From Demequina mangrovi (GTDB lineage Bacteria; Actinomycetota; Actinomycetes; Actinomycetales; Demequinaceae): a stretch of DNA of 64,000 nucleotides. The DNA is taken from positions 1-64,000 of the forward strand of contig NZ_BBLU01000005.1 of the NCBI RefSeq assembly GCF_000759715.1. Direction: 5' to 3'. The notes beneath the pieces are model-generated. The model did no database searches. It was given only the letters and a program-made list of their open reading frames with translations, and was not told where the DNA came from. The translations under genes and the position numbers were made by a program. This document shows, in pieces, positions 26,383 through 30,871 of this stretch. Each line of letters starts with the position of its first letter. Position 1 is the stretch's first letter.

Positions 26383-28254
26383 GTGACAGACACGACCGTG
26401 GCGCCCGACCAGACCGCCACCCTCACCGCGATGAAGCTTCCCCAGCTCCAGGCGCTCGCCGCCGAGCTCGGAGTCTCGGGAACCGCGCGGATGCGCAAGA
26501 AGGACCTGGTCGAGGCCATCAAGAACGGCGGCGTCGTGCCCGCCAAGGAGAAGCCGGCGAAGGCCGCTCCCCGCACGTCGAAGAGCACCACGGACGCCGA
26601 GGCGGAGGCGCCTCAGCAGGACGCGCCCGCGTCCGAGGCGCCCAAGGCGCAGCGCCCCGCGCGCTCGCGCCGCGCCTCGTCCCCGCAGTCCTCGCCGCAG
26701 TCGGCCGAGACGCGCACCGACGAGCCCGCCGCCGACGAGGACGCGGAGACCCGCGCCCGTCGCGCCAAGGAGGCCGTCGCGCTCGATCTCGCCCGCGGCA
26801 CCGAGCGCGGCGGCGAGCGCCCCGCGCAGCGCGAGGGCGAGGACGACCGCGCCCGCCGCGCGAAGGAGGCCGTGAGCCTCGACCTTCCCCGCGGCGAGCG
26901 CGAGCAGGAGGACGGCGAGCAGCAGGGCGGCGAGCGCCGCCAGCAGGGCCAGCGCCCCCAGCAGCAGGCCCAGGACGACGACGAGCGCGGCGGTCGCCGT
27001 CGCCGCGGTCGCGGTCGCGGTCGTGGCCGCGGTCGCGAGCGCGAGGGCGTCGAGGGCGCGGCCCCGGCTCCGGCCCCGCAGCACGACGAGGACGACATCC
27101 GTGACGACGAGGAGCTGACCCCCGTCGGCGGCATCGTCGACATCCTCGACAACTACGCGTTCATCCGCACCACCGGCTACCTGCCGGGCAAGTCGGACGT
27201 GTACGTGTCGATGAACCAGATCAAGAAGTACGGCCTGCGCAAGGGCGACGCCATCACCGGCACCGTGCGCCCGCCCCGCCCGGGCGAGCGCGGCCAGCGC
27301 CAGAAGTTCAACGCGCTCGCGGACGTCGACAAGGTCAACGGCCTCTCGACCGAGGAGGCGCAGGGCCGCCCCGCCTTCGGCGACCTCACGCCGCTGTACC
27401 CGCAGCAGCGCCTGCACCTCGAGACCGAGCCGCGCAACATGACCAACCGCGTGATCGACCTCGTGGCGCCCATCGGCAAGGGCCAGCGCGGCCTCATCGT
27501 CTCGCCGCCGAAGGCCGGCAAGACCCTGGTGCTGCAGTCGATCGCCAACGCGATCGTCACCAACAACCCCGAGGTCCACCTCATGGTCGTGCTCGTCGAC
27601 GAGCGCCCCGAGGAGGTCACCGACATGCAGCGCACGGTCAAGGGCGAGGTCATCGCCTCGACCTTCGACCGCCCCGCCGACGACCACACGACGGTCGCGG
27701 AGCTCGCGATCGAGCGCGCCAAGCGCCTCGTCGAAATGGGCCACGACGTCGTCGTGCTCCTCGACTCGATCACGCGCCTGGGCCGCGCCTACAACATCTC
27801 CGCGCCGGCCTCGGGCCGCATCCTCTCGGGCGGCGTCGACTCGTCGGCGCTGTACCCGCCCAAGCGCTTCTTCGGCGCCGCGCGCAACATCGAGAACGGC
27901 GGCTCGCTCACCATCCTCGCGACCGCGCTGGTGGAGACCGGCTCGAAGGCCGACGAGGTGATCTTCGAGGAGTTCAAGGGCACCGGCAACATGGAGCTCA
28001 AGCTCTCGCGCACGCTCGCCGACCGCCGCATCTTCCCGGCCGTCGACGTCAACGCGTCGGGCACGCGCCGTGAGGAGATCCTCATGAGCCAGGAGGAGCT
28101 CAAGATCATGTGGAAGCTGCGTCGCGTGCTCACCGCGCTCGAGCAGCAGCAGGCGATCGAGCTGCTCCTGGGCCGCCTCAAGGAGAACAAGACCAACGCC
28201 GAGTTCCTCATGCAGGTCGCCAAGACCACGCCGGGGATGGACGAGGAGAAGTAG
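26383..28254 (+). CDS. rho: Transcription termination factor Rho
   Basis: 623 residues. Domains: Rho N-terminal domain (about 14-52, MKLPQLQALAAELGVSGTARMRKKDLVEAI), a long disordered insert rich in Arg, Glu, Gln and Gly (about 55-235) typical of high-GC actinobacteria, an RNA-binding cold-shock fold (about 245-320) and the RecA-type ATPase. Walker A is SPPKAGKT and Walker B is VVVLLDSITRLGRAYN. It ends transcription of untranslated RNA as a hexameric helicase. GTG start with GAAGGGAA upstream. The insert is made of repeated RR-A-KEAV-LDL and Arg-Gly units and may help bind GC-rich RNA. Confidence 0.96.
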   Translation: MTDTTVAPDQTATLTAMKLPQLQALAAELGVSGTARMRKKDLVEAIKNGGVVPAKEKPAKAAPRTSKSTTDAEAEAPQQDAPASEAPKAQRPARSRRASSPQSSPQSAETRTDEPAADEDAETRARRAKEAVALDLARGTERGGERPAQREGEDDRARRAKEAVSLDLPRGEREQEDGEQQGGERRQQGQRPQQQAQDDDERGGRRRRGRGRGRGRGREREGVEGAAPAPAPQHDEDDIRDDEELTPVGGIVDILDNYAFIRTTGYLPGKSDVYVSMNQIKKYGLRKGDAITGTVRPPRPGERGQRQKFNALADVDKVNGLSTEEAQGRPAFGDLTPLYPQQRLHLETEPRNMTNRVIDLVAPIGKGQRGLIVSPPKAGKTLVLQSIANAIVTNNPEVHLMVVLVDERPEEVTDMQRTVKGEVIASTFDRPADDHTTVAELAIERAKRLVEMGHDVVVLLDSITRLGRAYNISAPASGRILSGGVDSSALYPPKRFFGAARNIENGGSLTILATALVETGSKADEVIFEEFKGTGNMELKLSRTLADRRIFPAVDVNASGTRREEILMSQEELKIMWKLRRVLTALEQQQAIELLLGRLKENKTNAEFLMQVAKTTPGMDEEK

Positions 28255-28277
28255 CCCTTCCGCGTCTCTCCTGCTTC

Positions 28278-28341
28278 CGCTCTGGCAGCCTCTGAGTGCT
28301 GAGATTCTGCCGATTCGCAGCACTCAGAGGCTGCCAGGGCG
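28278..28341. repeat. Long intergenic hairpin (element A)
   Basis: CTGGCAGCCTCTGAGTGCTG (28282-28301) is followed after 16 nt by its exact reverse complement (28318-28337). Three more pairs and one wobble extend the arms to 28278 and 28341. It lies 24 nt after the rho stop. There is no T-tract. It could terminate rho, but the perfect 20-bp arms are longer than needed, and four other hairpins of similar design occur in the window. Confidence 0.85.
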
Positions 28342-28440
28342 CTATCGGGTGCGTCTCCACACCCGATCGGCCCGGCACCTCCATCCACAGCCGTGCCGCC
28401 CAGGGATGCGGCGGGCGCGTGCGGGCGGTCGGATGCGCGC

Positions 28441-29373
28441 ATGCGTCTGCTCGCCGGCATCACCGACCTCGATCGACCTCTGACCAGCTTCCTCGGCGCG
28501 AACGCGCACGCCTTCACCCGAGCCGAGCTGCTCGGTCCCTGGACCCGTCACGCGCTCGACGCCGCGGTGCGTGCCGGGACGGTGGCGCGGGTGCTGCCCG
28601 GCGTGTACTGCGGTGCCGCTCATCGCGACTCGCCGTCGACGAGAGGCGAGGCGCTCAACCTGTGGGCGCCGCGGACGCTCGTCACGGGAGCTCTGGCGCT
28701 CCACCTCTGCACCCCCGCTCTCGCCGCTCCGCGCGTGGCGGACCTCGCCGCTCGCAACGGGGATCGGCTGCACCCGCCAGCATGGGTGCGCGTGCATCAG
28801 GCGGGGGTGCCGCTCGTGTCGTCGTGCCTCGGAGGCGTCAATTGCGTCACCCCCGAGCGCGCGTTGCTCGACGCCTGGAGGTATGCGCCGGAGCACGAGC
28901 GTCGCAACCTCCTGTGGGAGGCGCTGTGGGCGCGAGCGTGCACGTGGCGACAGGTCGAGCGCGAGCTGGAGCGCGCTCCCAGGGTGGCGGGCCGCCGAGA
29001 TCTCGAGCGCGTGCTGGGCTGGTTCGCCGAGGGCGCGACCACGCCGCTCGAGGTCCTTGCGAAGCACGAGGTGTTCACGGGCGCACGCTTCGACGCGTTC
29101 GAGCGGCAGGTCGATCTGGTGCTCCCGTCGCGACGGGCGACCGTCGACATGCTCCACCGGCGCGCGAGGGTGGTCGTGGAGCTGGACGGTGACGCCTACC
29201 ACTCGACCCGGAAGGCGCGTGACGAGGATCGCAACCGGCAGACCGATCTGGTGGCGGCAGGCTACGCGGTGGTGCGGTTCGGCTGGCGGGACGTCGTGGA
29301 CCGGCCCGAATGGTGCCGCGAGCGGCTCCTCACCGTCGTCGCGGGCAGGCTCACGCGCCCTGGCAGTCGATGA
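28441..29373 (+). CDS. DUF559 (VSR-like nuclease fold) protein with AbiEi-type N-terminus
   Basis: 310 residues. The N-terminal part (about 15-80: FTRAELLGPWTRHALDAAVRAGTVARVLPGVYC) looks like the winged-helix start of AbiEi antitoxin-type proteins. The C-terminal part (about 210-300) is a DUF559 domain, a relative of the VSR endonuclease, with VVVELDGDAYHSTRKARDEDRNRQTDLVAAGYAVVRFGWRDV carrying the acidic and basic residues expected. It lies between rho and rpmE, which are usually neighbours, and is flanked by hairpins that share GGCTGCCAG. An ATG 16 codons into a longer GTG frame (28393) is the chosen start. DNA target unknown. Confidence 0.8.
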   Translation: MRLLAGITDLDRPLTSFLGANAHAFTRAELLGPWTRHALDAAVRAGTVARVLPGVYCGAAHRDSPSTRGEALNLWAPRTLVTGALALHLCTPALAAPRVADLAARNGDRLHPPAWVRVHQAGVPLVSSCLGGVNCVTPERALLDAWRYAPEHERRNLLWEALWARACTWRQVERELERAPRVAGRRDLERVLGWFAEGATTPLEVLAKHEVFTGARFDAFERQVDLVLPSRRATVDMLHRRARVVVELDGDAYHSTRKARDEDRNRQTDLVAAGYAVVRFGWRDVVDRPEWCRERLLTVVAGRLTRPGSR

Positions 29374-29415
29374 CAGCCGGGAATCCGTGGAATCCCACCA
29401 CTCCACGGCTGCCAG
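29360..29415. repeat. Intergenic hairpin (element A')
   Basis: CTGGCAG (29360-29366) pairs with CTGCCAG (29409-29415), and inside it CCGTGGA (29385-29391) pairs with TCCACGG (29402-29408); 18 nt bulge out on the left side. Its left arm overlaps the end of the DUF559 gene. The right end GGCTGCCAG matches the right end of element A in the same orientation. Confidence 0.6.
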
Positions 29416-29556
29416 CGCGCGGGAGGGGGAGCGGCCGGGCCCGCTTGACAGGCATGGCAGAATAGTGCGTTGGCCCCGTCTGCTGACGGGACTCATGGTC
29501 GCCGGTTCACCGTCGTGAGATACGCGTCGGACCCGGTGGCGAACCTAAGGGAGATC

Positions 29557-29766
29557 ATGAAGAAGGACATCCACCCCGAGTACGTGGCCACCACTGTCAC
29601 GTGCACCTGCGGTAACACGTTCGAGACCAAGTCCACCGTGAAGTCCGGCGCGATCAGCGTCGAGGTCTGCTCGGCCTGCCACCCGTTCTACACGGGCAAG
29701 CAGAAGATCATGGACACCGGTGGTCGCGTGGCGCGCTTCGAGCGCCGCTACGGCAACAAGAAGTAA
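29557..29766 (+). CDS. rpmE: 50S ribosomal protein L31 (zinc-binding form)
   Basis: 69 residues. This is the zinc-containing (C+) type: the cysteines are in TCTCGNTFE and VCSACHPF. It bridges the two ribosomal subunits and serves as a zinc reserve. ATG at 29557 with AAGGGAG 5 nt upstream. A TTGACA at 29445-29450 suggests a promoter about 100 nt upstream, though no well-spaced -10 is clear. The gene leads into prfA after 22 nt, as in most actinobacteria. Confidence 0.96.
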
Positions 29767-29788
29767 CCCGCTTCACCCGCGCGACGAC

Positions 29789-30871
29789 GTGGCCGAAGCC
29801 TTCGCAGCCGTCCAGCCGATGCTGGACGAGTACGCCGACATCGAGCAGCAGCTCGCCGACCCTGCCGTTCACGCGGACGGTGGTCGCGCACGCACGCTCG
29901 GGCGTCGCTTCGCGGAGCTCGGCCGCGTCGTCGCCGCGCATCGTGCCTGGACCAGCGCCCAGGACGATCTCGAGGCCGCGCGCGAGCTCGCGGACCTCGA
30001 CCCCGAGATGGCCGAGGAGATCCCGGCCCTCGAGACCGCCGCGGAGGACGCGACCGAGCACCTGCGACGCATCCTCATCCCGCGCGACCCCGACGACGCG
30101 CGCGACGTGATCCTCGAGATCAAGTCCGGCGAGGGCGGCGAGGAATCCGCGCTGTTCGCGGGCGACCTGCTGAAGATGTACCTCAAGTTCGCGGAGTCCA
30201 AGGGCTGGAAGGCCGAGGTGCTCGAGGCCGTCCACACCGACATGGGCGGGTACAAGGACGTCTCCGTCGCCGTCAAGGCGCGCGGCTCCGTCGAGCCCGA
30301 GGACGGCGTCTGGGCCCAGCTGAAGTACGAGGGCGGCGTGCACCGCGTTCAGCGCGTGCCGGCCACCGAGTCGCAGGGCCGCATCCACACCTCCGCCGCG
30401 GGCGTGCTGGTCTACCCGGAGGTCGAGGAGGTCTCCGAGGTCGAGATCGACATGAACGAGGTGCGCGTCGACGTGTACCGCTCGTCGGGCCCCGGCGGCC
30501 AGTCGGTCAACACCACGGACTCGGCGGTGCGCCTCACGCACCTGCCCACCGGCATCGTCGTGAGCTGCCAGAACGAGAAGAGCCAGCTCCAGAACAAGGA
30601 GTCCGCGCTGCGCATCCTGCGCGCGCGCCTGCTCGCCGCGCAGAAGGAGGCCGCCGAGGCCGAGGCCCAGGACATGCGCAAGTCGCAGATCCGCACGGTC
30701 GACCGCTCGGAGCGCATCCGCACGTACAACTTCCCGGAGAACCGCATCGCGGATCACCGCACCGGCTACAAGGCCTACAACCTCGACCAGGTGCTCCAGG
30801 GCGACCTGCAGCCGGTCATCCAGTCGGCGATCGACGCGGACGAGGCGGCACGCCTGTCCGCAGCCGACTGA
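29789..30871 (+). CDS. prfA: Peptide chain release factor 1
   Basis: 360 residues, the normal length. It recognises UAA and UAG stop codons and triggers release of the finished protein. The GGQ motif is in [20 protein letters not shown] (about residues 225-245), the stop-codon reading loop lies in the middle domain, and the N-terminal helical domain is complete. The start is GTG with no clear ribosome binding site. PrmC, which methylates the Gln of GGQ, is encoded directly downstream. Confidence 0.96.

Follow-up and report, generated by a model that had tools for sequence, protein, structure and literature searches.

In Demequina mangrovi, a gene for a DUF559 nuclease-like protein lies between rho and rpmE, with a hairpin on either side. 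An earlier reading of the sequence alone took this to be an unusual insertion, possibly of a mobile gene whose ends are the hairpins. What are these hairpins, and how are they related to the gene that they enclose? We considered these questions in the window, by which we mean the whole 64,000-nt stretch at the start of contig NZ_BBLU01000005.1, and in the genomes of the genus and the order.

A nuclease gene between two related hairpins

Comparison identified the neighbouring genes as rho (26383-28254, + strand) and rpmE (29557-29766, + strand). The gene between them (28441-29373, + strand) encodes a 310-aa protein that exceeds the Pfam cut-offs for PF18741 (40.9 versus 38.2 bits, E 2e-10) and PF04480 (36.5 versus 20.6 bits, E 4.4e-9), which bears out its description as a DUF559 gene lying between rho and rpmE. 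Its C-terminal domain belongs to the DUF559/MTES_1575 family of Vsr-like, PD-(D/E)XK nucleases. ATG 28441 appears more likely to be the start codon than GTG 28393, because the resulting 310 aa is the length of most homologues. Based on Pfam and on invariant residues, the nuclease domain spans residues 231-297 (29131-29331, + strand). All 44 homologues share D236, E247, D249, H254, D263, R266 and D284, and these invariant acidic, His and Arg residues suggest nuclease activity. Just ahead of rpmE, 29499-29540 may be an L31 (rpmE) leader, although its 24.1 bits fall under the gathering score of 35.

The N-terminus had been called AbiEi-like. A weak AbiEi-like (winged-helix) part is indeed seen at residues 34-149 (28540-28887, + strand; PADLOC AbiEi, E 0.016), but the Pfam family AbiEi_4 scores 16.7 bits on this protein, below its cut-off of 25 (E 0.0082), and hence the claim holds only as a weak similarity. 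At E<=0.1, AbiEi_4 is matched by 14 of 36 family members, with a best E of 1e-4. Other comparisons added little: matches in defence libraries were confined to weak AbiEi and to partial alignments with large proteins, in their nuclease part; searching solved structures by profile yielded a single weak match (3hrl, 'Endonuclease-Like Protein', E 0.017); and a structure prediction with only three sequences in its input was poor (mean pLDDT 44).

The hairpins are two 66-nt palindromes, each delimited by a covariance model described below. The upstream one occupies 28277-28342, with a CTGG..CCAG core at 28282-28337, and the downstream one occupies 29355-29420, with its core at 29360-29415. The unit as first given (28278-29415) is therefore slightly short. 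The downstream palindrome overlaps the last codons and the stop of the gene, and one of its inner arms has decayed. The sequence confirms the shared features that had been pointed out: GGCTGCCAG occurs on the + strand at both 28329-28337 and 29407-29415, and CTGGCAG forms the left arm of both hairpins. By itself, GGCTGCCAG is weak evidence, as the window has four copies, a number also reached in 4 of 100 shuffles. Folding is more telling. When the sequences are folded as DNA, the upstream hairpin has a z score of -9.46 and the downstream hairpin one of -4.05, with none of 200 shuffles equalling either. Compared with each other, these 65-nt sequences reach 71% similarity as direct repeats and 75% as inverted repeats.

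A discrete palindrome of fixed size

To describe the element, we built a covariance model (R1) from hairpins of the family, 40 of which came through the filter and 25 of which were aligned (A1) as the training set. Both window hairpins belong to these 25, and score 67.6 bits (E 8.3e-14, upstream) and 53.4 bits (downstream). Each aligned hairpin is 65 or 66 nt long, the sole gap column being a single base. Strict dyad covariation is extensive, with double changes at 22 of 23 pairs (136 cells, versus 46.5 in shuffles), and one-sided changes of the G-U type are few relative to double changes. This imbalance favours a DNA palindrome over an RNA element. An RNA element was also considered through Rfam, where matches at the hairpins were to animal or plant miRNA or other sRNA models, far under their gathering scores, and was rejected.

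The element has the consensus GCGYN-CTGG...CCAG-NRCGC, and its edges are sharp. In 42 dispersed copies (20 from other genomes and 22 from the window's own genome), conservation ends at the first base beyond GCG...CGC. One caveat here is that the outer five positions belong to the search model, which may exaggerate how conserved they are; the fall beyond them is unaffected. None of the 42 copies provided a target-site duplication above the null, although old copies would have lost such a duplication.

Palindromes match within a locus and follow the protein

We asked whether other homologues have such flanks, as the sequence-only reading had suggested doing. In the 44 genus homologues of >40% identity, some of whose hairpins had trained the model, R1 matches on both sides in 31, on one side in nine and on neither in four. 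That reading would have been refuted if all relatives had the gene at this place with no hairpins around it, or if other DUF559 copies had no such flanks; neither is borne out in full, though 13 of the 44 lack a match on at least one side. The modal offset of the downstream element from the stop codon is -18, in 22 homologues with a detected downstream element, the window gene included.

The two palindromes of a locus resemble each other. When the best hairpin on each side was chosen blindly, independent of R1, similarity between upstream and downstream hairpins averaged 44 within loci versus 17 between loci, a difference reached in 0 of 10,000 permutations (40 of 44 loci; L055, L076, L091 and L096 have no hairpin over threshold on one side). 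Raw flank sequences gave a similar picture, with 24 of the 44 homologues above the 99th percentile of cross pairs. At a locus orthologous between G020 and G043, the flanks are 86% alike on one side and 75% on the opposite side; neither palindrome is the same in the two species, although each species has a matching pair. Loci below 40% identity were left out of the matching, grouping and correlation analyses and viewed separately. Matched pairs of other sequence flank homologues at ~35-48% identity (L130, L131, L134-L137 and, partly, L139 and L140), and mostly no matched pair is seen at 33% or below. Chance or artefact as the origin of the hairpins is ruled out by the folding scores, this within-locus matching, the covariation and the sharp edges.

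Of the 40 loci, 34 have a usable rho (G011 was omitted for its odd rho alignment). In these, hairpin similarity correlates with protein similarity once rho is removed (partial r 0.376; 10 of 5000 permutations), and not with rho similarity once the protein is removed (partial r -0.005; 2596 of 5000). Palindromes and protein co-vary: arm sequences are alike at the two ends of a locus but vary from locus to locus, and they go with the protein, not with the species. Split by region, residues 32-217 give correlations of 0.25-0.41 and residues 218-310 give 0.12-0.16; the best-correlated parts include residues 32-62 and 125-186.

The stronger hairpin correlation of residues 32-186, compared to the nuclease part, together with the weak AbiEi similarity, raises the idea that the palindromes are operators, through which an AbiEi-like domain controls its own gene and perhaps, by way of the dispersed copies, a regulon, their spread having come about by another route. 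AbiEi antitoxins do bind inverted repeats at their own promoters, as described in excerpts of one report (PMC7319586). Nevertheless, we think this account quite unlikely. The second palindrome sits at the 3' end of the gene and spans its stop codon; the dispersed copies tend to follow genes, not precede them; and invariant catalytic residues are unexpected in a pure repressor.

The rho-rpmE junction across the genus

Comparing the junction among relatives was the other check proposed at the outset, and occupancy does vary. Our survey covered all 43 other genomes of the genus, including G042, where an assembly gap hides rho itself. A homologue is present at the junction in 25 and absent in 18. 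The junction is thus a habitual site of the gene in the genus, and the idea that its presence there is unusual is not supported. Nine of the 18 gene-less junctions have a single family palindrome between rho and rpmE (L046, L051, L059, L060, L061, L062, L063, L068 and L070, with positions placed by hand). In G043, G035 and G017, the lone junction palindrome resembles the flanks of the same genome's gene copy elsewhere.

What is distinctive in the window is the orientation, which is opposite to that of all 25 junction homologues in relatives. Given this, and given that the flanks form inverted repeats, one might suppose that a vertically inherited gene had simply been inverted between the palindromes on its two sides. 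We find this extremely unlikely. G006 is 94% identical to the window's genome in the rho region, yet identity between the window gene and the junction gene of these nearest relatives (G006 and G042) is only 62-63%, compared to 72% for copies away from rho in G043 and G020. Its palindromes are also of a type other than that of the G006/G042 junction gene, and the window gene groups with the G020 and G043 copies. The higher identity to copies elsewhere fits replacement or re-insertion better than simple inversion.

Several further arrangements were seen. Many junctions have, in addition to the element, a separate G+C-rich hairpin directly behind rho. In G019, one more palindrome of the gene's type (L039, 3821-3885) comes directly after rho, before the downstream palindrome, and occupies the spot where other species have the G+C-rich hairpin. 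In G006 and G042 (L050 and L047), a P-loop kinase-like gene, identified by reading, lies between the upstream palindrome and rpmE, and its stop codon is covered by a third palindrome, again of that type, as if a second gene had been captured. In G032 (L080), a DUF559 gene of 30% identity is found upstream of rho rather than between rho and rpmE. A second palindrome family, with a GATTGGTACCAATC core, is found at intergenic sites of similar kinds (L040, the G010 junction, and L170, in G024).

Dispersed palindromes and their cognate genes

A strict pair pattern is present only at the two window places in the whole of the window's own genome. With R1 at E<=0.01, this genome has 54 strand-matches, or 27 distinct sites by our own count. 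At the same threshold, matches were obtained in 43 of 44 genus genomes, with 0 to 62 strand-matches each; because R1 was trained on 25 gene-flanking hairpins, its counts may be too low for genomes whose types differ from these. R1 has no match at E<=1 in 135 kb of DNA from other families. Matches are more abundant where a close homologue (E<1e-90) is present, with a mean of 36.2 in these 32 genomes compared to 9.75 in the other 12 (P = 1.5e-5). G028 is an exception, with 32 matches and no close homologue. For 20 dispersed copies from five other genomes, hand-picked as high-scoring matches from the genus scan list, the best match is the flank of the own genome's gene in 16 and not in four.

The location of the palindromes would also fit a host function. 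Considering 22 of the own-genome sites, 15 follow a coding-like stop by no more than 150 nt (19% for random positions), and six lie inside coding-like ORFs (70% for random positions). This distribution, and the long, GC-rich stems, would be natural for bidirectional terminators or 3'-end stabilisers of the host, similar through ordinary recombination and with no involvement of the nuclease. We nonetheless hold this explanation to be unlikely: a terminator scan of 27800-29900 found no GC-rich hairpin followed by a T-run, the palindromes have sharp edges and a size fixed at 65-66 nt, many junctions have their separate hairpin right behind rho, and the arms track the nuclease protein and not the species.

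The palindromes of the window's own genome fall into several types, named i-iv, and few belong to the resident gene. Only L105, among 23 copies scored, best fits the flanks of the window gene (0.9; L107, 0.75), and palindromes of the resident type are limited to the window pair, L105 and L107. Most dispersed copies are of types whose closest gene flanks sit in other species, and many match the junction gene of G006/G042. By their sequences, it is as if a gene of the G006/G042 type had once been present and was then replaced.

Palindromes without a cognate gene in the same genome might instead be non-autonomous elements of another, unseen transposase, with the DUF559 gene as cargo or hitch-hiker, and the P-loop kinase-like gene of G006/G042, which also bears a palindrome at its stop, could be read in this way. 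This seems to us very unlikely. The transposase family that we looked for, Y1 (RAYT-type, PF01797), is found in 0 of 44 genus genomes, compared to 5 of 14 control genomes; the partner gene is of one family across loci, palindrome sequences and bacterial families; and the palindrome co-varies with the protein.

Palindrome types turn over at the same intergenic sites. To align orthologous sites, we searched with 5740 of 7920 joined bases, leaving out L111, L113, L115 and part of the L110 right flank, and chose L107 and L106, for which both flanks were found in several genomes. At L107, different palindromes are read from the alignment in the window's genome, G042, G019, G006 and G024, and none in G014. 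At L106, the palindrome of the window's genome is missing from four relatives. No clean single-event empty site was seen.

Related genes in other families

MTES_1575 domains are common in the order (98 of 119 genomes searched, some of them from the genus), and no homologue at E<=1e-25 was found outside Demequinaceae among 198 genomes of the order. We hand-picked 20 roughly single-domain genes from other families, with open frames of ~280-460 aa, and 10 of these have flank similarity above the 99th percentile of cross pairs. The matching flanks are unrelated in sequence to the genus palindromes, and some of the repeats are not clearly palindromic. L237 and L244, of one family, share one repeat: on either side of these DUF559 genes (in G122 and G135) lies a 34-nt GACGAGGTTTGCACTATAACCCCATTTACTGCAG, not obviously a palindrome, whose two copies in L244 are identical. 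For the palindrome that flanks the gene in G130, a pattern search gives 15 matches (<=2 mismatches), compared to 0 for the reversed control, and several further sites hold these matches as palindromes of similar length.

Discussion

Mobile genes bounded by terminal inverted repeats, together with short gene-less relatives, are familiar from MITEs and IS elements. Both features are present here, but each end is a full palindrome in itself and there is no target-site duplication above the null. The closer parallel is with REP/RAYT 'REPtrons'. As described in excerpts of two reports (Nunvar et al., PMC2817692; PMC3733652), these have a gene between two cognate palindromes in inverted orientation, co-variation of gene and palindrome, an abundance of the cognate palindrome that goes with the gene, and dispersed, extragenic copies. 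Similarly, in the genus studied here, the gene is flanked by two palindromes in inverted orientation (by R1 on both sides, in 31 of 44), gene and palindromes co-vary, palindrome abundance goes with the gene, and the cognate palindromes are dispersed and extragenic, although those of the window's own genome are mostly of non-cognate types. The components are different. The enzyme combines a PD-(D/E)XK nuclease with an AbiEi-like part and is not an HUH/Y1 transposase, and the element, 65-66 bp with CTGG..CCAG, has a consensus starting GCGYNCTGG and no GT(A/G)G head. Membership in the RAYT family is ruled out by the absence of PF01797 from the 44 genomes and by the PF18741 and PF04480 matches. 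By analogy, the arrangement appears to work like REP/RAYT without being a member, its enzyme being unrelated.

Other known systems share single parts with the locus. According to excerpts of one survey (PMC3710099), DUF559/MTES_1575 Vsr-like domains occur within giant HEPN/helicase proteins with a presumed role in defence, unlike the 310-aa two-part protein with flanking palindromes described here. The inverted-repeat binding of AbiEi type IV antitoxins, as presented in the excerpts cited above (PMC7319586), is a precedent for the weakly similar N-terminus, but no AbiEii (DUF1814) gene is adjacent, as it would be in an AbiE toxin-antitoxin pair; the neighbours are rho and rpmE. In the open-access PMC literature that we searched, no association of DUF559 with palindromes was found.

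We propose, with moderate confidence, that the locus represents a two-part repeat-spreading system, similar to REP/RAYT but with a PD-(D/E)XK nuclease in place of the tyrosine transposase. One part would be the discrete 65-66-bp DNA palindrome, with dispersed copies mostly just downstream of genes. The other would be the gene for the AbiEi-like plus PD-(D/E)XK (DUF559/MTES_1575) protein, lying between two cognate palindromes. In this proposal, the N-terminal and middle part of the protein would read the arms of its cognate palindrome type. The nuclease part would then cut at the palindrome, probably when this is extruded as a hairpin, and cutting would lead to the palindrome, or sometimes the whole gene unit, being copied, lost or replaced. 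Of the suggestion that this is a mobile gene with hairpin ends, the paired, gene-specific ends stand; the hairpins are however a dispersed family, and what spreads appears to be the hairpin itself, beyond the 1.1-kb unit.

Some observations count against the two-part system: the non-resident palindrome types in the window's own genome, the four of 20 non-cognate copies elsewhere and G028; the 13 of 44 homologues with an unmatched side; and the location behind stops, which equally fits terminators, alongside the missing target-site duplication. The system looks like an undescribed kind of repeat spreading in bacteria. Whether it extends further is an evenly balanced question: actinobacterial DUF559/MTES_1575 proteins may be a second, independently evolved group of REP-type mobilisers, each recognising and spreading its own palindrome type.

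If this is true, a function would be provided for DUF559 proteins, a large, common and so far unexplained nuclease family, and these proteins would be the partners of dispersed palindromes in actinobacteria without RAYTs. The REP/RAYT arrangement would have evolved twice, with unrelated enzymes. There would also be enzymes and palindromes in natural pairings that differ in sequence, whose specificity could be tested directly by partner swaps.
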